From the NCBI GenBank assembly GCA_035461765.1, contig DATHUY010000056.1, positions 1 through 46,745 on the forward strand: a stretch of DNA of 46,745 bases. The letters run 5' to 3'. The notes under the pieces were generated by a model that was not told where the DNA came from, did not search any database, and saw nothing but the letters and a program-made list of their open reading frames with translations. Source of the stretch: Longimicrobiales bacterium (GTDB lineage Bacteria > Gemmatimonadota > Gemmatimonadetes > Longimicrobiales > RSA9). Positions 9,514 through 46,456 of the stretch are shown one piece after another (within the stretch, counting starts at the first letter, position 1; each line of letters begins with the position of its first letter). The position numbers and the translations under genes are program-made.

Positions 9514-12072
9514 TCAGACTTCCGCCTTCAGTGCCTCCGTCGGCTGGATCCTGAGCGCGCGTCGCAGCGGCACGGCGCACGCCGTCAGTCCGACGACGAG
9601 CATGATTGCGTCCGCCCCCAGCAGGAGCATCACTTCCTTTGTCGATTGCAGGCCTATCAGCCAGGCCAGCGCACTGCCCGCGAGGATGCCCGCAGTGATC
9701 TGGAGGAACGCGCGCGAGAAGACGCCGGCGACAATGCGGCGCGGGCGCGCACCGAGCGCGGCGCGAATGCCGATCTCGCGCGTACGTCGTGCCACGGTGA
9801 ACGACATCAGCGCATGGATGCCGGTCGCCGACAACAACAGAACGATGAAGGCGATCAGCCACGCGACGGACGTCAGCGCCCAGTTCGCAGTCGCCTCACC
9901 GCCTCCGACGCTCGTGAGCGGCTGGACCTCGGTAAGCCGGATGGTTGGATCGACGCTCGCAGCGATAGCGCGCAGACGCGGCCCGAACGTCTGCGGATCG
10001 TCTACGAGCGCGGCGAGGTTGAGGCCGGCGGCCGCTGTGGGGCGGCGCGGGAGATACATGGCGGACTGCTCGTGCGGCAGCGGCAGCTGCCAGCCGAAGT
10101 CCTCGACCATGCCGATGATCTCGTACCATTCCTCGCCTGCGAGACTGCCGACCTCACCGCTCACGATGCGGATGCGCTGCCCGATCACGTTCCGGCCCCC
10201 GAAAATGTGGCGTGCAAACGACTCGTTCACGATCATGGCGTTGCCCGTCTCGAAGTCGATCGGCGCGAAGTCACGCCCTGCAGCGAGCGACGAGCCGAAC
10301 GCATCGAAGAACCCGTCCGACACCCGCACCAGCGTGCTTGTGCGCAGCGTCGTCGGCGGAGCTCCGGCGAGCGTATCGATCTCGATCTGATACTTGAACT
10401 GATCCATCACCGGCAGGCGGTCTGCGAATGCGACCTGCTGGACCCCCGGCTCGGCGCGCAGCCTTCGCTCCAGCTCATCGAAGCTCACTCGTGCGCGTGC
10501 TGCAAACGCCGCGGAGTCGAGAGCGAAATCCTCGCGATCGATGCCGACGCTCGCAGTCAGGTATCTTTCCGCACGGATGCCTTCGGCTCTCTGCATGAAG
10601 CGGTTGGACTCGTATACGCCTGCCGCGGCGAGCGGCAGGAGTGCAACCGTGAGCGCGACCTGCACGACGATCACCGTCGTCCAGAACCCGCCGAACTTCA
10701 TGCCGGAGCTCGCCGCACTCGCGTTGCGCAGCGCATCCTGCACGTTCATGCGGGTCGCCCGGAGCGCGGGCAGGATCCCGACGATGGCCGCGCCGAACAG
10801 CGTGAGCAGCGCCGTGCCCAGCACGGTCGTCCACGACAGGCTGTCGTCGATCCAGAACGGCATCCCTTCGCTGCCGGCCAGCAGACTCAGCCCCCAGGTC
10901 AGGGCAACCTTCGCGATGACGAGCCCGATCAGTGCGGCGACGCCAGCCAGCACCAGAGCCTCGATGAACAGCTGCGAGATGATACGGCCGCGGCTTGCGC
11001 CGAGTGCGCTTCGGACCGTGATCTCCCACCCGCGCGTCGCCGTCCGCGCGAACACGAGCGTGGCCACGTTCACACACACGACAGTCAGCAGCATCAGAAA
11101 TATGCCGGCGACTACCGACAGCATCCCCGTGATCAACATCCCCTGGCTTCCGCCCATGAGCGGCTTCGCGTACGACGTGATGCGCGGACTCAGGTTCCTG
11201 TGCGTCTCGGGGTGGTCCGCCGTAATGCGAGCACCGATGCCCTGCAGCTCCGCCTGCGCCGCGTCCATGGATGCGCCGGGAGCGAGGCGGCCGAAGATCG
11301 ACACCGGTGGACCGGTGCGCGGCGTCAGCAGCGCTTCCTCCAACTGGAGCGGCATCCAGATCCTCTCGGCCGTCGGGAACGCGAATCCTTCCGGCATCAC
11401 GCCGACCACGGTGGCGGTCACAGTGCCCAGCTTCACCGTCTGGCCGACGACGCCTGCATCGCTCGCGAACCGCGACTTCCACAGCGCATGGCTGAGCACG
11501 ACGACCGGCGGCTCCGTCGGATTCTCATCCTGCTCCGTGAGCGTGCGGCCCAGCAGCGGTGCCGTCCCCATCAGTCGGAACGCGTTGGCCGTGATCTCGG
11601 CTCCACGCACGGGCTCGATCCGACCGTCCGCGGTCGCCAGGTTGCGCGCGAACATCATCGCCGCGCCCAGGTTCTCGACCGTTCGCGCCTGCTCGCGCCA
11701 TATCGTGAAGTCGTACAGCGAGCGAGGTTCCGTTCCGAGCTCGCTCGCATCCCAGTTGCGGATCGTCACGACGCGGTCGCCGTCCGGGATCGGCAGCCGC
11801 GGGTTCTGCCACTTGTTGATCGCCTCGACGTAGATCGTGCCCAGCGCAATCGCGACCGCGATCGCCAGCGTGCCGACCGCCGTGATGCCCGGGTACCGCG
11901 CCAGCATGCGGAACCCCACCTTGAAGTCCAGCCAGGAAACGCCGGTTCGGCCGCGCCGGTCCGGCTCGCTCGACATGGCGATGTCGTCGGCGCCGCCCGG
12001 CCCGGAGCCGACATCGGAGTCGTGACGCGGGGACCGAAGGAGCGAGCGGATGCGGGCGATGATGCTGTTCAT
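9514..12072 (-). CDS. ADOP-type duplicated FtsX/MacB permease
   Basis: 852 residues with two MacB-type periplasmic domain plus FtsX permease modules, the acidobacterial duplicated orphan permease layout. The N-terminal TM segment is near residues 62-82. The first FtsX block (three helices) includes TRGWEITVRSALGASRGRII; the second, at the C-terminus, carries the signature RRTREIGIRAALGARPRRIV and ends RIQPTEALKAEV. No ABC ATPase is nearby, as is usual for this family; the transported substrate is unknown. It ends 4 bp before the alternative GTG of the deacetylase, so it may head the cassette transcript. A low-GC patch with TATAAA-like hexamers lies upstream at 12200-12235. Confidence 0.93.
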   Translation of the reverse strand: MNSIIARIRSLLRSPRHDSDVGSGPGGADDIAMSSEPDRRGRTGVSWLDFKVGFRMLARYPGITAVGTLAIAVAIALGTIYVEAINKWQNPRLPIPDGDRVVTIRNWDASELGTEPRSLYDFTIWREQARTVENLGAAMMFARNLATADGRIEPVRGAEITANAFRLMGTAPLLGRTLTEQDENPTEPPVVVLSHALWKSRFASDAGVVGQTVKLGTVTATVVGVMPEGFAFPTAERIWMPLQLEEALLTPRTGPPVSIFGRLAPGASMDAAQAELQGIGARITADHPETHRNLSPRITSYAKPLMGGSQGMLITGMLSVVAGIFLMLLTVVCVNVATLVFARTATRGWEITVRSALGASRGRIISQLFIEALVLAGVAALIGLVIAKVALTWGLSLLAGSEGMPFWIDDSLSWTTVLGTALLTLFGAAIVGILPALRATRMNVQDALRNASAASSGMKFGGFWTTVIVVQVALTVALLPLAAAGVYESNRFMQRAEGIRAERYLTASVGIDREDFALDSAAFAARARVSFDELERRLRAEPGVQQVAFADRLPVMDQFKYQIEIDTLAGAPPTTLRTSTLVRVSDGFFDAFGSSLAAGRDFAPIDFETGNAMIVNESFARHIFGGRNVIGQRIRIVSGEVGSLAGEEWYEIIGMVEDFGWQLPLPHEQSAMYLPRRPTAAAGLNLAALVDDPQTFGPRLRAIAASVDPTIRLTEVQPLTSVGGGEATANWALTSVAWLIAFIVLLLSATGIHALMSFTVARRTREIGIRAALGARPRRIVAGVFSRAFLQITAGILAGSALAWLIGLQSTKEVMLLLGADAIMLVVGLTACAVPLRRALRIQPTEALKAEV

Positions 12073-12189
12073 GATCGACTGCTTTCAAGCGGTGAAATCG
12101 TGAGCGGAACTCGCGGGTCCCGAGTCCGGCGTGTTCGAGGTGCGGCGTGTTGTCGGTCTGCCTGTTCGAGTGGTCGGGCATGGAGGCGT

Positions 12190-22960: not shown

Positions 22961-23091
22961 CGGACGCGGAACCCACTCTGCAGAACGGCTCAGGTCCGCA
23001 TGGCCGTGCCGCGCCGGGACATGCCGGCCGACTATCCTGGTGACATGCGCATGTCCGGATGAGCCGTTCTGCAGAGTGGGTGCCGCGTCCG
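22961..23091. repeat. 131-bp inverted-repeat element, copy A
   Basis: Left arm 22961-22992 (starts CGGACGCGGAACCCACTCTG), right arm 23060-23091; the 32-base arms pair with a single mismatch. The 67-bp interior contains the perfect 14-bp palindrome GACATGCGCATGTC. It begins 3 bp after a stop codon. No target-site duplication is visible. Confidence 0.9.
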
Positions 23092-28619: not shown

Positions 28620-28750
28620 CGGACGCGGAACCCACTCTGCAGAACGGCTCAGGCCCGCATGCCCATGGCGCTCCGGGACATTCGGCCTCGCCTTCCCGGG
28701 GACATGCGCATGCCTCCACAGGCCGTTCTGCAGAGTGGGTTCCGCGTCCG
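28620..28750. repeat. 131-bp inverted-repeat element, copy B
   Basis: The left arm 28620-28651 equals that of copy A; the right arm 28719-28750 pairs over its outer 29 bases and loses the last two pairs. The interior is in the same orientation as copy A (GCCCGCATG... GGGGACATGCGCATG). It sits 81 bp downstream of the Spy-like gene and upstream of the adaptor operon. The rest of 28468-28831 shows nothing I can name. Confidence 0.9.
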
Positions 28751-35444: not shown

Positions 35445-35575
35445 CGGACGCGGAACCCACTCTGCAGAACGGCTCAGGCACGCTCAGCCGTGGCGCGCAC
35501 AGACATGCAGGATCGCGCTTCCGGGGACGTGGGCATGCGCTATTGAGCCGTTCTGCAGAGTGGGTTCCGCGTCCG
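35445..35575. repeat. 131-bp inverted-repeat element, copy C
   Basis: Arms 35445-35476 and 35544-35575 are perfectly complementary over 32 bases. The interior is in the same orientation as copies A and B but more diverged. It fills the gap between two converging genes: 9 bp from the stop of the small + gene and 4 bp from the stop of the DUF4097 gene. Confidence 0.92.
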
Positions 35576-39707: not shown

Positions 39708-39838
39708 CGGACGCGGAACCCACTATGCAGAACGGCTCACCGGGGCATGCGCATGTCACCGGGAGCGCGGGGCCGCATGTCCCGGCGCGTCACGGCCGTG
39801 TGGGCCTGAGCCATTCTGCAGAGTGGGTTCCGCGTCCG
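39708..39838. repeat. 131-bp inverted-repeat element, copy D (reverse orientation)
   Basis: Arms 39708-39739 and 39807-39838 pair with two non-Watson-Crick positions. The interior is the reverse complement of the type in copy A (GGGCATGCGCATGTCACC at the left, GGCGCGTCACGGCCGTG at the right), so the element is inverted here. It starts 5 bp after the ADOP stop and overlaps the end of the converging amidohydrolase gene. Confidence 0.92.
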
Positions 39839-41525
39839 ACGCCGTCAGCCGCACGTCGTCGATCAGGATCCTGAACGAGCCCTCCGGTGATCCTGCATCG
39901 ATCGATATCGCGTGGACGGCTGATGGATCGAGGCCGTTGAACTGCTGCCAGTCGAAGCGGTACTCGCGCCAGTCCCGCCCGGCGGTGAAGCGCGCGGTGG
40001 CCGGTCCGTCCGGCGCATAGAGCGTGACTTCGTAAATCCTCCCATCACCGCTGGCGGCGAACGCGATGCCGGTCGCGTCGGCGATGCTGGCGACGTCGCC
40101 GGGAGATTCGGTGAACTGGAGCAACGCGCCGGCCCAGGCGATTCGAAGCCTGCCGGGCACGATCCGGCCGATGACCTCGAGCGCGTGCTCGCTGCCGTTG
40201 TGTCCACCACGCACGATGCGAATCTGCGCCGTGGATGCGCCACCGCGCCGCTGATCGCTCGACACGCGCCAGGGAATACCGAGTGATGAAACGAGCGTAC
40301 CCTCCTCGAAATCACTGATCAGGCCGGGCCCATGACGCTCGCGCGCCGCCTCCCGCTCGGCGAGCTCCGCACGCGCAGCGTCGTGCCACGGCTGATGGTC
40401 GAAGCGCACGCCACCCTTCCACACCCCGACGATCGCCCGGGTCGCGTCGATCGACGTCGTGGGATCTCCGTACACCAGGAGCAGGTCCGCGCGTGCACCC
40501 GGCCTGATGCGGCCGCGATCCGTGAGACGGAACGCATCGGCCGGGGCGGACGTCGCCGCCTTCAGCGCTTCCAGGGGCGCGAGACCGGCGTCGGTCAGCA
40601 GCACGAGCTCATCGTGGAGCGATGTGCCGAACGCAGTGCCGGGGTTGGGTGCGTCGCTGCCCGCGAGCAGCGGCACGCCCGCACGCGCGAGCGCGCGAAT
40701 CGCGGCGGACCCGCGGCCGCGCGTCACGGCAAGCGTCGGCACCACGAACACATCGCTTTCGCGCAGCCGCCCCGCGAGTGCGGCGTGATCCGCAGCATCG
40801 AGCCAGACGTGCATCAGCCCGTCCACTCCGGCGCTCACGGCACGTTCCGCCATCTCGACACTCATTGCGTGCGCCACGGCGAGCAGACCGCGCGCGTGGG
40901 CGGCGTGCACCACTGCAGCAATGGTGGCAGAATCGAGCGTCGGGATCTCGCGTCCGATCACCTGTCCATCTTCGACAATGATCTTGATCCATTCCGATCC
41001 TTCAGCCACGCGTGCGGCGACGAAGGTGTCCGCGTCCGCCGCGCTCGACAGCGTCGGGACGCTGAGGGCGTACTGAGTGCCGTGGCCGTCCGGCGCTGTT
41101 GCCACGATGCCGGCGGTCATGAGGGAGGCCCTGGTCGCGGCAGAGCTGGCGTCCTCTTCGCGCAGACTCCGGGCGATCGCGGGATCGCTGAACATGTCGA
41201 GGTGCATCGTGACGCCCCACGCCAGGGCTGCCGCGAGATCTTCGCGCGAACGCGTGTGCGTGTGCGCATCGATCAACCCCGGGAGCAGAGTGCGGCCCGA
41301 GCCTTCTACGACGGCTGCGTCCGCAGGGGTCTCGATGCCGCGGCCGAGGTTCGCGATCCGTCCGTCGCGTACGATGACGGTCGCCGAGTCGAGCACGCGC
41401 TCGCCGTCAAACACGCGAACATTGCGGAAGGCGGTCACCGCACCGGTTGGCGACTGCGCGCGCAACGGGTGCGGCGCGGCGCTGGCGACGGGCAGCAGCA
41501 GGATGATGGCAGTGATGAGTCGCAC
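39756..41525 (-). CDS. Secreted amidohydrolase fused to CIA30-like carbohydrate-binding domain
   Basis: 589 residues from GTG 41525 (GGAAGG 5 bases upstream), giving the signal peptide (M)RLITAIILLLPVASAAP. Amidohydrolase domain ~30-400: LPGLIDAHTHTR (H88, H90), EWIKIIVEDG (metal Lys region), LAVAHAMSVEMAE, LLAGSDAPNPG (Asp). Residues ~415-562 form a CIA30-type jelly-roll (ISDFEEGTLVSSLG, YRFDWQQFNGLDPSAVHAIS, SFRILIDDVRL), often a sugar-binding-like fold on secreted enzymes. The last ~26 residues (SDAEPTLQNGSG onward) are coded by the repeat element D, which also gives the stop codon. The frame continues upstream to 41642 without signal-peptide features. Confidence 0.88.
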   Translation of the reverse strand: MRLITAIILLLPVASAAPHPLRAQSPTGAVTAFRNVRVFDGERVLDSATVIVRDGRIANLGRGIETPADAAVVEGSGRTLLPGLIDAHTHTRSREDLAAALAWGVTMHLDMFSDPAIARSLREEDASSAATRASLMTAGIVATAPDGHGTQYALSVPTLSSAADADTFVAARVAEGSEWIKIIVEDGQVIGREIPTLDSATIAAVVHAAHARGLLAVAHAMSVEMAERAVSAGVDGLMHVWLDAADHAALAGRLRESDVFVVPTLAVTRGRGSAAIRALARAGVPLLAGSDAPNPGTAFGTSLHDELVLLTDAGLAPLEALKAATSAPADAFRLTDRGRIRPGARADLLLVYGDPTTSIDATRAIVGVWKGGVRFDHQPWHDAARAELAEREAARERHGPGLISDFEEGTLVSSLGIPWRVSSDQRRGGASTAQIRIVRGGHNGSEHALEVIGRIVPGRLRIAWAGALLQFTESPGDVASIADATGIAFAASGDGRIYEVTLYAPDGPATARFTAGRDWREYRFDWQQFNGLDPSAVHAISIDAGSPEGSFRILIDDVRLTASDAEPTLQNGSGPHGRDAPGHAAPRSR

Positions 41526-41709
41526 GGGAGCCTTCCAGTGGTAGAGATAGAAGGGTGCGATCGAATCCGTCTTGACATTGGCCCGGCCCCGGCAGACACG
41601 CAAGGATGAACTGGCAGATACGCATGACGCCTCTGGCGCCACACCGTACGTCCTCCCATCATGGCGCGTCAGAATCCCGTGAGCGGACCCGGATCGTCAT
41701 CGCATCGGT

Positions 41710-43287
41710 GTGAACCCGCACCCGACCACGCTCCCGCTCCCGCAATGTGGAAAGCAACGGCAGCATTTGGTCACAGAACACACGGCACACGACGCGCGCC
41801 GCACGCATAGAACACTGGTCCTGACCGCCCTCGTCGTGGCGATGTTCCTGGCCGCCATCGAGGGCACGATCGTCGCCACCGCGATGCCGAGCATCGCTTC
41901 GCGGCTGGGCGGCTTCTCCCTCTACAGCTGGGTCTTCTCGTCGTACCTGCTGATGCAGGCGGTGACGACACCGGTCTTCGGCAAGCTCGCCGACCTCTAC
42001 GGTCGCAAGCCGGTGTTCATCGGCGGTGTGACGATCTTCCTCCTGGGATCGCTGCTGTGCGGCTTCGCGGATTCGATGGGGATGCTCGTCGCGTTCCGCT
42101 TCGTGCAGGGCATCGGTGCGGGTGCGGTTCTGCCGATGAGCGCCACGCTCGCGGGCGACCTCTATTCCATCCGGGAGCGCGGCCGCATCCAGGGATACCT
42201 GGCGAGCGTCTGGGGAATCTCCTCGATCATTGGCCCGCTCGCGGGCGGCGTGATCGTCGAGAACATCGACTGGCACTGGATCTTCTGGCTGAATCTCCCG
42301 TTCGGCGTCATCTCGATCGCGCTCATCTCGCTGTTCCTGCACGAATCCGTGCAGCACCGGGAACGCTCGATCGACTACACGGGCACGGCCCTCCTGCTCG
42401 TCGGTCTGTCCGCGCTGATGCTCGCGCTCACGCAGGCGGGCGAGTGGGGCGGTGCACCGACCCTGGCGCTCGCGCTGATTGCGACGCTCGCACTGATCGC
42501 GTTCGTGCGGCAGCAGCGGAGTGCGCCCGACCCGATCATGCACTTCGAGCTGTGGTCGAATCCGATCATCCGCCGCGGCAACCTCGCAATTCTCTTCGCG
42601 GGAGTCGCGATGATCGGGCTCATCACGTTCCTTCCGACGTTCGTGCAGGGCGTACTGGGCGGCAGCGCACTCGAGGCGGGCTTCACACTGTCGGGCATGT
42701 CGCTCGGCTGGCCGATCGCGTCCGTCTTCGCAGGTCGGACGTTCCTGCGCTTCGGCGTGCGCACGCTCACACGTGCGGGCGGCGTGTTCGTCACGCTGGG
42801 CGGACTGATCGTCGCGTCACTCGCGGGTCAGGGCGCGGTCCCGGCCGCAATCGGCGCGTTCTTCATGGGCATGGGACTGGGCCTCCTGAACACGACGTAC
42901 ATCGTCGCGATCCAGACGAGCGTCTCCTGGCAGCAGCGCGGCGTCGCGACCGCCACGAACATGCTGATGCGCAACCTCGGCAACGCGGTCGGCGCGGCGC
43001 TGCTCGGCGGCGTGCTGAACGCGCGGATCGCGGCGTACATCGACCAGCGTGGCCTCGCGTCGGTGATCTCGCTCGACAGCGTGCGACAGCTGATCGAGCG
43101 CGGCGACGGGGCGGCGGTCTCGATACCGGCCGAAGCGCTCGCGGTGCTGCGCGACGGCCTGTCCGCGAGCCTGATCCTCGTGTTCTGGGCGGTCGCCGCA
43201 TTTGCGGCGGTCGTCCTGCTGATCAGCTGGCGCGTGCCGGACCTGCATCCGGACAGGATTCTGGAGCACGAAGGCACACGCGGCTGA
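41710..43287 (+). CDS. DHA2-family (EmrB/QacA) MFS drug exporter
   Basis: 525 residues from GTG 41710; an in-frame TTG near 41767 is an alternative start just before the first helix. About 14 TM helices. Motif A is GKLADLYGRKPVFIGG and motif C-like GISSIIGPLAGGVIVENIDW, followed by HWIFWLNLPFGVISI, all standard for DHA2 proton-driven exporters. No HlyD-type adaptor is adjacent, so it probably acts alone in the inner membrane. It is divergent from the CIA30 amidohydrolase with a 184-bp shared gap in which I see no clear operator. Confidence 0.92.
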   Translation: MNPHPTTLPLPQCGKQRQHLVTEHTAHDARRTHRTLVLTALVVAMFLAAIEGTIVATAMPSIASRLGGFSLYSWVFSSYLLMQAVTTPVFGKLADLYGRKPVFIGGVTIFLLGSLLCGFADSMGMLVAFRFVQGIGAGAVLPMSATLAGDLYSIRERGRIQGYLASVWGISSIIGPLAGGVIVENIDWHWIFWLNLPFGVISIALISLFLHESVQHRERSIDYTGTALLLVGLSALMLALTQAGEWGGAPTLALALIATLALIAFVRQQRSAPDPIMHFELWSNPIIRRGNLAILFAGVAMIGLITFLPTFVQGVLGGSALEAGFTLSGMSLGWPIASVFAGRTFLRFGVRTLTRAGGVFVTLGGLIVASLAGQGAVPAAIGAFFMGMGLGLLNTTYIVAIQTSVSWQQRGVATATNMLMRNLGNAVGAALLGGVLNARIAAYIDQRGLASVISLDSVRQLIERGDGAAVSIPAEALAVLRDGLSASLILVFWAVAAFAAVVLLISWRVPDLHPDRILEHEGTRG

Positions 43288-43308
43288 CAATTACATCTCC
43301 GAATGCTG

Positions 43309-44691
43309 TCACTGCTGCGGCGGAATGTTCTGGTTGATGCGGAACATGTTATCCGGATCGTACTTCTTCTTCAGCTGCACCAGCCGCTCGTAGTTCGCGC
43401 CGTACGCGGCCGGCACGCGGTCACGCTCATCGGCGGCAAGGAGGTTCACGTAGACTCCGGCCGCTGCATACGGCCGCATCGCATCGTAGAACGCGCGCGT
43501 CCAGCGCATCAGCGCATCGTCGTCCGACGGCTCGGACCAGCCGGCGAGGATGTGAAGCCCGTACGCGGCATCAGTGTGCGGAAACGCAATCGCGTCTGAT
43601 GCAGTGCGCGCGATGGCGCCACCCATCGGCTCGAAGTAGGCCATCGTATACGGACCGGCGAGGTCTTCTGCGTGGCGCACGAACGTGTCGATCGCATCAT
43701 TGCTGAGTGCGTTCATGTACTGCGCGCGTGAGTACCAGCGCAGGCCCGCCGGCATTCCAGCATCGAAGGCCTGCTGCGCGGCGACGTAATGCGTCGTCTG
43801 GGTGGCCGCGAAAAACGGCTCGCCCATTTCTGCCAACGGGGCAAATGCGGTACGTCCGTCTTCGACATCGCCGCAGTGACACGCCACCAGAACGATGGCG
43901 GGCCGGCCGTGCTGCTCCACGGGGAACGGCGCGATCGGCGGAACGCGCAGCGCGAACGCATACGCGCTGATATCGTCGGATGCTCCGCTCGTGAAGTCGC
44001 GAAAGAAGTGCAGCACGTCGCGCGCGTGCTCGATGGGATGGAACGCCTGCGCGGTGACAACATCGGGGCCGACGGGATGCAGCCGGATCTCGAGCGACGT
44101 CACCACACCGAAGTTGCCGCTGCCGCCGCGCAGTCCCCAGAACAGGTCCGCGTTCTCGGATTCCCCCGCACGGAGCACGCGTCCATCGGCCGTGACGACC
44201 TCGAGCGACAGCAGGTTCTGCACACCGAGGCCGTGCTTGCGTGCGAGATAGCCTGAACCGCCGCCGAGTGAAAAGCCGGCGACACCGACGCTCGACACGG
44301 TCGCACCGGTGGTCGCGAGACCGTGCAGCTGCGATTCACGATCGACATCCGCCCACGTCGCGCCCGGCTCCACGATTGCGACGCGTCGATCCGCATCGAT
44401 GGCGACGGCGTTCATGCGCGACAGGTCGAGCGCGAGCGCACCATCCCCGACCGCGAGTCCCGCGTAGCTGTGACCGCCGCTCCGCACCGATACCGGCAGG
44501 CTGAGCTCGCGCGCGACCGACACGGCAGTCGCCACGTCGGCCGTATCCAGGCACCGGACGAGGGCCAGTGGCTGCGGGTCGAAACGGGCATTCCACACCG
44601 CGCGCGCTTCGTCCCAGCCTCCGTCGGACGGCAGGATCAACTCACCGCGCAGGCGGTCGCGAAGCGTCTGGATTATTGTGGAATCAGGCAT
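43309..44691 (-). CDS. FAD-linked oxidase (PCMH/BBE family)
   Basis: 460 residues. PCMH FAD-binding domain with the histidyl-FAD motif SVRSGGHSYAG (His74) and GVAGFSLGGGSGYLARKHGL. The second covalent anchor, a Cys in the VAG region of bicovalent berberine-bridge enzymes, is absent, so flavin is probably mono-covalent. The C-terminal BBE element reads NYERLVQLKKKYDPDNMFRI followed by NQNIPP. No signal peptide, so cytoplasmic. It oxidises sugars, alcohols or other small molecules in known relatives; the substrate is unknown. It converges with the MFS exporter, stops 21 bp apart. The 44692-44937 gap upstream shows nothing clear. Confidence 0.92.
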   Translation of the reverse strand: MPDSTIIQTLRDRLRGELILPSDGGWDEARAVWNARFDPQPLALVRCLDTADVATAVSVARELSLPVSVRSGGHSYAGLAVGDGALALDLSRMNAVAIDADRRVAIVEPGATWADVDRESQLHGLATTGATVSSVGVAGFSLGGGSGYLARKHGLGVQNLLSLEVVTADGRVLRAGESENADLFWGLRGGSGNFGVVTSLEIRLHPVGPDVVTAQAFHPIEHARDVLHFFRDFTSGASDDISAYAFALRVPPIAPFPVEQHGRPAIVLVACHCGDVEDGRTAFAPLAEMGEPFFAATQTTHYVAAQQAFDAGMPAGLRWYSRAQYMNALSNDAIDTFVRHAEDLAGPYTMAYFEPMGGAIARTASDAIAFPHTDAAYGLHILAGWSEPSDDDALMRWTRAFYDAMRPYAAAGVYVNLLAADERDRVPAAYGANYERLVQLKKKYDPDNMFRINQNIPPQQ

Positions 44692-44919
44692 GGCGCGCGT
44701 CGTGGAAGGAATGCCGAGGTTGGCGTGCAGGGCAGCCTAGGACGTATGGCTCGTCGATGCAAGCATGACGTCGAGGGGGATGGAGGGATGGTTGCATCGG
44801 CGACGCGGCCAGCGCGCCTCCGCTGACCGCCACACGAACTGTAGCGCGGCCACGGCGCACGCCAACGGCGCGCGGGCGCCCGATCACAAGGACGCCCGCA
44901 CGCTGCTCAGCGCGATTCA

Positions 44920-44959
44920 CCTCATGCCGCCGCGCGCCTACCTCATGCCGCCGCGCGCC
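44920..44959. repeat. 19-bp tandem direct repeat at the lipoprotein stop
   Basis: CCTCATGCCGCCGCGCGCC occurs at 44920-44938 and 44941-44959, period 21 bp. The inner copy codes the C-terminus (ARGGMR) of the minus-strand lipoprotein and the outer copy lies just beyond the TAG, repeating the same codons followed by TGA. Confidence 0.85.
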
Positions 44960-45978
44960 GAAGGCACTGTGAACGTCTTCAGCATGTTCTTCACTGCGGG
45001 ATCCGGCACCTCGGCGATCCACGCATACGTGCCGGGCGCGAGATTGACCGTGTAGTACGCCGTGTTGCCGGCCGCCATCTCCATCGTGCCGCCGAGGAAC
45101 TCGGCGCCCTCCGGTGCGCGGAATGCGAGCGACCCTTCGGCGCGCCAGTCCATCCAGCTAGCGAGGTCAGCGAGCAGCGCCGGGTCCGTGCTGTCCAGCT
45201 TCACGAGGTGTGCGTTGTGACCCTGCAGATGTTCGTAGACTGCCTGGTCGAGGAACCGGATCGCGATCGTCTGCATGCCCGGACGCATATCCTCAGGCAC
45301 CCGGATCCCGTCGGTCGAAGATAGTTCCAGCACCGCGTTCGCCGATGGCTCGCGTGCGTCCGACGGCTCGTCCGTCACCGTCAGCTGCTGCAGCATACCG
45401 TTGTACGAGTGAAACTGCTCATCCTCGTCCTTCACGTAGCACTCCAGGATGTACGTGCCGGGCTCGAGCAGCACAGTTGTCTGCGACGTCTTTCCCGCCG
45501 CCGTCAGACCGGGACCGCCCGACGCCGGCGCGCCCGGCGAGAAGAACCACGGTGCGGATGCCGAGATGGCGCCCACCAGGTTGCCGACGAAATCGTTATA
45601 GGTGATGTCGCCCGCGACGTACGGGTTGAACTCCTCCTGGAACGGGACCGTGATCGCTTCGTGCCAGTGGTCGAGCAGCGGCTCGCCTGCGCTCGCGGCC
45701 GCATCGATCGCCTCCTGCGGTACCCGGTACAGCAGCACGAAGTGATCGGAATGCGACGCGTTCGCGAACCTGAATGTGGTCCAGCCGCTCGGTACCTGGT
45801 CCGCTGACAGATTGAACAGATGCTGATCGCCGCTGTGCGTCGCGGTCACGTCCACGATGGTCGCGTGGCCGCGCGCCAGGACGTCCGCGCTGGCGGCCAT
45901 GATCGGCTCCGGCGCCGAGTCGGCGCAGGCGAGGACGAGCGCGATGGCGCCCAGGGTCGAGATGGTGCGGTGCTTCAT
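44938..45978 (-). CDS. Lipoprotein with two cupredoxin-like beta domains
   Basis: 346 residues from ATG 45978 (GAGGGG 4-5 bases upstream). MKHRTISTLGAIALVLACAD is a lipoprotein signal (Cys18). Two Ig/cupredoxin-like halves each end in a strand with an xPGTY turn: LEPGTYILECYVKDEDEQFH plus SYNGM, and LAPGTYAWIAEVPDPAVKNM. In the first half, Cys, His and Met of ECY..FHSYNGM, with an upstream His (SHSDHFVLLYR), could form a type 1 copper site; the second half lacks Cys. The Cys-to-His spacing is longer than in plastocyanins, so metal binding is uncertain. The frame upstream to 46227 runs through element E and is not coding. Confidence 0.7.
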   Translation of the reverse strand: MKHRTISTLGAIALVLACADSAPEPIMAASADVLARGHATIVDVTATHSGDQHLFNLSADQVPSGWTTFRFANASHSDHFVLLYRVPQEAIDAAASAGEPLLDHWHEAITVPFQEEFNPYVAGDITYNDFVGNLVGAISASAPWFFSPGAPASGGPGLTAAGKTSQTTVLLEPGTYILECYVKDEDEQFHSYNGMLQQLTVTDEPSDAREPSANAVLELSSTDGIRVPEDMRPGMQTIAIRFLDQAVYEHLQGHNAHLVKLDSTDPALLADLASWMDWRAEGSLAFRAPEGAEFLGGTMEMAAGNTAYYTVNLAPGTYAWIAEVPDPAVKNMLKTFTVPSARGGMR

Positions 45979-46082
45979 GATGCCCCTCGATGAGTCGGGT
46001 GAACTGTGATGGTGAGGGGAGGATAGGCGTGCGCCCTTTGTTGATGGTCCCACGCCCCTTAGAGGCCATCTAAGTGATCTGC

Positions 46083-46213
46083 CGGACGCGGAACCCATTC
46101 TGCAGAATGGCCGGTCCTGACAGCTCAGATGGCTGTTCACCCATGGCAGGCGCCGCACGATCGGCCGCGCCCATGTTACCGCGAGCCATTCTGCAGAACG
46201 GGTTCCGCGTCCG
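46083..46213. repeat. 131-bp inverted-repeat element, copy E (most diverged)
   Basis: Same length and outer arms (CGGACGCGGAACCC...GGGTTCCGCGTCCG) as copies A-D. Inner arm changes are partly compensatory: AACGG/CCGTT became AATGG/CCATT. The left arm itself holds a perfect 16-bp palindrome, CCATTCTGCAGAATGG. The interior barely matches the other copies. It lies between the lipoprotein promoter region and the 180-bp inverted repeat. Confidence 0.85.
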
Positions 46214-46276: not shown

Positions 46277-46456
46277 CCCCGGACCTGGCTTCACTTTACG
46301 GTTATCGGCGGTCCGGCCATGGGATGTCCCCAGGTTTCGGCCACTGATCAGCGGGTATCCACATTCGGAAGCCTGCCAGCGAAGAAAACCCATACGCGGC
46401 GGTGGCGATTCCGTGCGCGGCGGGGGCGTATCCGTTAAGTGAAGCCAGGTCCGGGG
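46277..46456. repeat. 180-bp element with 25-bp terminal inverted repeats
   Basis: The left arm 46277-46301 (CCCCGGACCTGGCTTCACTT...) and right arm 46432-46456 are inverted copies with one mismatch. The 130-bp interior has no transposase or clear open frame. The right end lies 3 bp from the stop codon of the minus-strand gene at 46460. No target duplication is visible. A different family from the 131-bp elements. Confidence 0.85.

Follow-up and report, generated by a model that had tools for sequence, protein, structure and literature searches.

Miniature elements with covarying arms in a Longimicrobiales genome, probably derived from a TIR-flanked RAYT-type transposon and paired at the DNA level

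The name TIRtrons was given in 2013 (Di Nocera et al. 2013, PMC3733652) to RAYT transposase genes flanked by terminal inverted repeats (TIRs) that also form repeat families; they also appear as TIRYT/TIRtron, subclass 2.1 of the TnpA-Y1 transposases, a trait of which is a C-terminal helix-turn-helix domain (PMC6006769). The inverted repeats of TIRtrons form a family elsewhere in the genome in some cases, not in all (PMC3733652). In the REPIN/RAYT systems (Bertels and Rainey 2011, PMC3116915), the repeats are inverted doublets of about 100-200 bp that form one long hairpin, the length of the spacer is kept and its sequence is variable, compensatory changes on both sides are common, and the cognate RAYT gene is flanked by the same repeats. 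Both the kind of element and the compensatory changes in REPIN hairpins are thus already known. The present work concerns five copies, A to E, of a miniature element found in the window, i.e. the whole stretch of 46,745 nucleotides (nt) analysed (contig DATHUY010000056.1, positions 1 to 46,745, assembly GCA_035461765.1) of a Longimicrobiales bacterium. Each copy is 131 nt long, starts with CGGACGCGG and ends with CCGCGTCCG. These copies are probably non-autonomous miniatures that go back to the two ends of a RAYT-type transposon with flanking TIRs (a "TIRtron"), and their arms are probably paired at the DNA level.

In each miniature copy, the two arms (29-32 bp) follow one another base for base. 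Mismatches between the arms of the 78 copies amount to 184 of the 78 x 29 positions, against 395.5 when the right arms are re-paired within species (standard deviation 14.2, lowest value 337 among 5000 permutations), and 51% of the copies carry at most one mismatch, against 3.8% of the arm pairs taken across copies. These copies form a catalogue of 77 entries, one merged pair having been split, of which 52 come from the genome that contains the window (own genome, 4.68 Mb) and 25 from a congener, Gemmatimonadetes bacterium SH-MAG3. The outer 13-mer of the arms was counted 37 + 34 times in the own genome, against 0 for its reversed control, so that the repeats exceed chance. The copies belong to two length classes, 130-131 bp and mostly 185-191 bp, with few outliers, and their interiors are frequently just about 50% alike. 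No covariance-model match at E 1e-4 was obtained in 39 other relatives, 10 of them from the same family.

The copies were found through the exact outer 13-mer, or through a covariance model (19 copies) plus an arm scan, the best 150 of 8825 candidates being scored in the covariance-model search. The first alignments held exclusively exact-13-mer copies; L013 and L024 were excluded from model R1 and the second copy of L032 from alignment A2, and the counts do not include a pseudo-match at window 11904-12127 or a nested partial start in L019. Since a search by an exact 13-mer or by a model that rewards pairing overstates the conservation of the outer arm, the inner-arm test was redone with the 36 copies that the 13-mer search finds unaided. 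Positions 15-29 of these copies show 57 mismatches out of 540, against 116.3 expected within length classes, the lowest of 20,000 draws being 86.

The preliminary description of the window had argued from the arms of A to E that paired substitutions keep the stem, and had called for covariation statistics on a larger alignment. This covariation is indeed present: in a tree-aware test, our own imitation of R-scape with 60 null alignments that preserve the tree, 7 of the 29 pairs reach E < 0.05 in each length class, namely pairs 6, 7, 10, 15, 16, 18 and 23 in the 40 short copies and pairs 6, 7, 16, 17, 18, 20 and 23 in the 33 long ones. The claim is stronger genome-wide than in the window itself, where D, E and A carry mismatches due to changes in one arm. 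Pair 26, from which the evidence of D and E had been drawn, reaches significance in neither class (E 2.5 and 1.05); without the tree, its p value is 0.01 in the 36 copies reached by the 13-mer. Furthermore, 9 copies have private, perfectly matched inner arms, among 26 with matching inner arms and 73 examined, so that neither common descent nor a single shared protein specificity is sufficient alone. Sister pairs provide 11 shared changes over 12 pairs, and since 6 of these stem from one orthologous pair, this count is weak when taken alone. The match between arms depends on their spacing: the mean number of mismatches out of 29 is 1.8 for arms at most 143 bp apart (n=40), 2.3 at 176-199 bp (n=32) and 6.2 at 268 bp or more (n=5). 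The poorer match of these five long elements, whose ends are 268-1082 bp apart, has p 0.0025, the second copy of C149 being omitted from the counts of arm spacing and of neighbouring bases. The paired changes are real, and they point to folded DNA or to arm-to-arm copying, not to a working RNA.

The evidence on the origin of these arms comes from the transposase genes. In the own genome, an open reading frame (ORF) of 316 amino acids (C107:99580-100527) has a left arm of the family on one side and a right arm on the other, in an element measuring 1082 bp end to end, and its congener orthologue, 73% identical, lies within a 1081-bp element with the same arms. There are two such transposase genes in each species. 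The second one (C107:1806-2738), 49% identical to the first, occupies a 1072-bp element with arms CGGACCTGGCTTCAC..., and these arms recur in about 15 miniature elements of the own genome, some with private matching arms (e.g. L132). The separate arm families at the two genes indicate that each transposase gene has its own arms and its own miniatures. Both proteins are absent, at E 1e-10, from 10 of 10 other genomes of the family. By its sequence, the 316-residue protein is a Y1/HUH tyrosine transposase of the TnpA-REP/RAYT kind. H58 and H60 (HUH) and Y117 are invariant in the four proteins, the roles assigned to these residues following in part PMC3733652. NCBIfam REP_Tyr_transpos is matched with E 5e-18 and 3e-17, and the TnpA-REP structure 4er8 in a profile comparison with E 0.0028. 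The Pfam Y1_Tnp scores are 25.6, 23.2, 20.5 and 22.8 bits for a cut-off of 23, which two of the four proteins exceed, and HTH_23 matches, all below cut-off, are found at residues ~271-314 of three of the four (E 0.0003-0.001).

A transposase gene between the same arms, together with a second gene that has arms of its own, marks the miniatures as probable TIRtron derivatives that are REPIN-like without GTAG. As in TIRtrons, a RAYT-like Y1 transposase gene lies between long terminal inverted repeats unrelated to the GTAG REPs (PMC3733652): the arms flank the 1082-, 1081- and 1072-bp elements and no GTAG tag stands beside them. As there too, the same inverted repeats constitute a moderately abundant family elsewhere, also in pairs (PMC3733652, PMC6006769), here the 78 copies in two genomes plus the second family. 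Unlike in TIRtrons, nearly all members are complete pairs at two fixed spacings, the arms co-vary, and GGGGWSAS, a motif of many TIRs (PMC3733652), is absent from the arms. The host also differs, belonging to the Gemmatimonadota, a phylum that neither PMC3733652 nor PMC6006769 names; our literature search, made largely outside subscription papers, found no published report of such elements in this phylum. The REPIN organization recurs in that two inverted repeats form one hairpin and the same arms flank the cognate RAYT gene, from which mobilization by this enzyme is predicted. In contrast to REPINs, the GTAG (or GGAG-like) 5' tetranucleotide is lacking, and the covarying stem is the one between the arms and not a hairpin within each arm. 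Indeed, the palindrome inside the arm (centre CTGCAG) displays no covariation beyond expectation, except at pair 18-23 (0.62 vs 0.47), and a canonical REP hairpin inside each arm is ruled out by this lack. Miniature inverted-repeat transposable elements (MITEs) and IS200-IS605 derivatives are likewise non-autonomous and built from the ends of a transposase-bearing element; the present elements differ by their long hairpin-forming arms and by a Y1 HUH enzyme instead of a DDE transposase.

The sites occupied in both species allow the arms to be followed over time. Six orthologous sites were recognised by the homology of their flanks, three on both flanks and three on one. At these sites the left arms differ at 37 positions and the right arms at 37, and 30 of the changes are common to both, where independence would give about 8 (sum of products over the 29 positions). 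The arms thus co-evolve at sites that have been occupied since before the species split. At C39/C269, where the interiors are mutual best matches (79% over the element), all 6 changes affect both arms, without a mismatch in either species; the paired divergence of the arms, 6/29, is like that of the interior, ~22%. At C91/C88 (L018, own genome C91:9740; L078, congener C88:7801), 6 of 6 arm changes are also shared.

The outer part of the arm follows another rule. Ten positions, CGGAC, GG and ACC, are nearly invariant across the copies of both species, and the changes at positions 6, 7 and 10 occur in both arms. The adjoining base is G at 50 of 50 congener arms, and T or C at 92% and G at 7% of the 104 arms of the own genome, a species difference that holds at the orthologous sites too; the 5' neighbours read approximately C-M-G-Y in the own genome and A-M-A-G in the congener. 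The outer bases, being conserved in sequence and species-specific, point to recognition by a protein whose specificity differs between the species. This species-specific base resembles the tetranucleotide that guides cleavage in the REP and IS200/IS605 systems (PMC8266576). Such a protein specificity does not explain the private inner variants.

The model we propose combines these two rules. The transposase would recognise the outer arm, CGGACNNGGNACC plus the adjoining base, and would have moved the elements as the single-stranded hairpin made by both arms; this recognition, the cutting of the single-stranded arms and the movement of the hairpin would follow the example of the TnpA-REP and IS200/IS605 enzymes. 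The inner arm bases would remain paired at the DNA level. A mutation in one arm would create a mismatch in the hairpin, and a template switch of replication there would later copy the mutation to the other arm or revert it; selection for a foldable strand may or may not assist. Copies D and A would then represent one-arm states midway through this cycle of mismatch correction. That the inner bases vary yet stay paired fits selection on the DNA hairpin, template-switch copying, or both. A similar process is described as quasi-palindrome correction in E. coli (PMC7202029), in RNA stems (PMC8794818) and in yeast (PMC8604942), where imperfect inverted repeats are perfected by the copying of one arm onto the other; it differs from our case in being a mutation mechanism and not an element family, and its other hallmark, the inversion of the spacer, was not seen at the six orthologous sites, the spacer of C91/C88 being ambiguous (inverted 35.0, direct 27.5, highest of 300 shuffles 33.5).

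Several observations weigh against this model. No transposition has been seen. Two of the four proteins fall just below the Pfam cut-off, and the NCBIfam REP_Tyr_transpos scores, 65 and 63 bits, fall below the cut-off of 80. The RAYT elements, orthologous and present once each, have 5 and 8 mismatches between their own arms, from which the gene may by now be domesticated and the arms at this place out of use. Part of the arm changes shared at orthologous sites may stem from replacement by another copy: at C91/C88, the interiors are closer to other own-genome copies than to each other, which may reflect such an in-place replacement or several insertions into the same position. For the C39 copy, one species has a perfect inner hairpin and the other does not, a difference that a plain template-switch correction does not predict. 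Finally, some arm types of the congener recur in several copies, which makes ectopic conversion possible.

The strongest competitor, which has a real though minority chance of being correct, is selection alone: the copies would be kept in a state in which their single-stranded DNA can fold, either because transposition needs it or because they serve the host as a 3'-end or supercoiling element, and one-arm mutations would be removed or compensated. The conservation of CGGAC, GG and ACC speaks for it, as do the compensatory changes reported as common in REPIN hairpins (PMC3116915) and the non-random placement of the copies. The distance to the copy is at most 15 bp for 74% of the 65 gene 3' ends that face one (median 6), against 17% of the 60 facing 5' ends (median 78.5), the gene neighbours being taken from our own codon-usage gene caller and not from an annotation; REPs, too, are reported mostly downstream of genes (PMC3733652). 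Against selection alone stands the C39/C269 site, a single locus, where the arms have diverged in pairs as much as the interior and contain no mismatches, since a compensation that passes through disfavoured intermediates is expected to be slower than neutral change. The preliminary description had named arm-to-arm gene conversion as the alternative to selection, and such a conversion accounts for the orthologous sites no less well than selection; we give arm-to-arm copying a slight preference, since the arms, in pairs, have diverged as much as the interior at this one clean locus. Could a continual arm-to-arm copying through the DNA hairpin keep the arms matched at fixed chromosomal sites, the inner bases drifting pairwise at the neutral rate and the outer arm with its adjoining base being retuned species-wide to the specificity of a domesticated transposase? 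We put this full scheme forward tentatively. If so, the elements would be living records of bacterial template switching, and covariation statistics would miscall them as RNA structures.

RNA was the first of the two folded forms suggested by the preliminary description. Selection on a folded RNA, acting as a 3'-end hairpin, a terminator or a stabiliser of mRNA, now appears very unlikely. In its favour, the copies abut stop codons, often those of two convergent genes (both genes end within 15 bp of the copy in 12 of 17 convergent cases, and the copy often fills the gap exactly), and the strand is very stable when folded, with z-scores of -8.1 to -9.9 against 200 shuffles for B, D and E as single strands. 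A stem at the RNA level tolerates G-U, not A-C, on the transcribed strand. On the element strand, the short copies have 22 G-T and 20 A-C mismatches and the long ones 12 and 20, i.e. 34 vs 40 overall; where copies lie between co-directional genes, the transcribed strand has 13 mismatches of the G-U type and 14 of the A-C type. This absence of a G-U excess argues against RNA folding, although the mismatches are few and the test is weak. In addition, half of the copies are not transcribable from one defined side, and no Rfam match was found within the window. We thus see no sign of selection at the RNA level, within the small numbers of mismatches available, and a structured RNA family was rejected as a candidate on the G-U tolerance and the Rfam search.

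Plain shared ancestry, in which a few founders with matched arms spread recently and the covariation merely mirrors relatedness, is quite improbable. Subfamilies do exist and young pairs differ mainly in one arm, as this explanation would have it, but the null that preserves the tree still leaves 7 of 29 significant pairs per class, and new paired changes have arisen at orthologous sites, so that it is rejected unless all six are independent re-insertions. An explanation without any folding, in which both arms follow the binding specificity of one transposase and change in parallel, accounts for the outer arm and the species-specific adjoining base, but is hardly credible and is rejected for the inner arm, where the arms match within a copy and differ between copies and where the 9 private matching variants are found.

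These results add two Gemmatimonadota genomes to the known range of TIR-flanked RAYT systems; the two transposase genes have a miniature family each, and the orthologous copies let the co-evolution of arms be followed base by base. They also call for caution, as a significant covariation in a bacterial intergenic repeat is not necessarily that of a functional RNA: folded DNA or template switching mimic the signal, and the strand test of G-U against A-C mismatches helps to separate RNA folding from these two.

Within the window, copy A (22961-23091, plus strand), of the 131-bp class, has one mismatch, at pair 10, and copy B (28620-28750, plus) has 29-bp arms paired throughout. Copy C (35445-35575, plus), with arms also paired throughout, separates two convergent genes whose stops are 9 and 4 bp away. 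Copy D (39708-39838, minus) starts 6 bp past the stop of the upstream gene; its 29-bp left arm, as read on the plus strand (39708-39736), is the partner of the right arm (39810-39838, minus), with mismatches at stem pairs 18 and 26. It is inverted relative to A-C and belongs to the same subfamily, its interior being 85% identical to that of the copy in L012. Copy E (46083-46213, plus) belongs to another subfamily, its nearest relative being the copy in L006 (84% interior identity), and its left arm (46083-46111, plus) and right arm (46185-46213, minus) have a single mismatch, A-C, at pair 15. The arm bases quoted in the preliminary description for the plus strand, AACGG/CCGTT in A-C, AACGG/CCATT in D and AATGG/CCATT in E, are correct. 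Its view of D as an intermediate between A-C and E has to be abandoned, and a descent series from A-C through D to E is ruled out by orientation and subfamily membership. No clean empty sites were obtained for B-E in the congener with one 19.7-kb query. The genes that adjoin C and D have congener homologues, with no copy seen in the stretch alongside; since the next gene beyond differs in the congener, these are not clean empty sites.

Some further features deserve mention. An amidohydrolase-like ORF, named by eye (39756-41603, minus), is convergent and has its stop codon within copy D, which supplies the C-terminal codons of this ORF if 39756-41603 is the true extent of the gene. Copy E adjoins a copy of the second family (46280-46453) with arms CGGACCTGGCTTCACTT..., which are also found on either side of the second RAYT-type gene (L128). 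Elsewhere in the own genome, L063 (C61:2722-2931) has three successive left arms at a 40-bp spacing followed by one right arm, and L032 (C149:60669-61679) holds two copies of different length classes ~0.7 kb apart. In L009 (own genome C41:3491-3966, 476 bp) and L104 (congener C374:6069-6545, 477 bp), the arms flank a small gene that we take, from its reading, to be YlxP/DUF503-like. Finally, a perfect 20-bp tandem duplication, ACCTCATGCCGCCGCGCGCC, lies at the end of an ORF at window 44919-44959.

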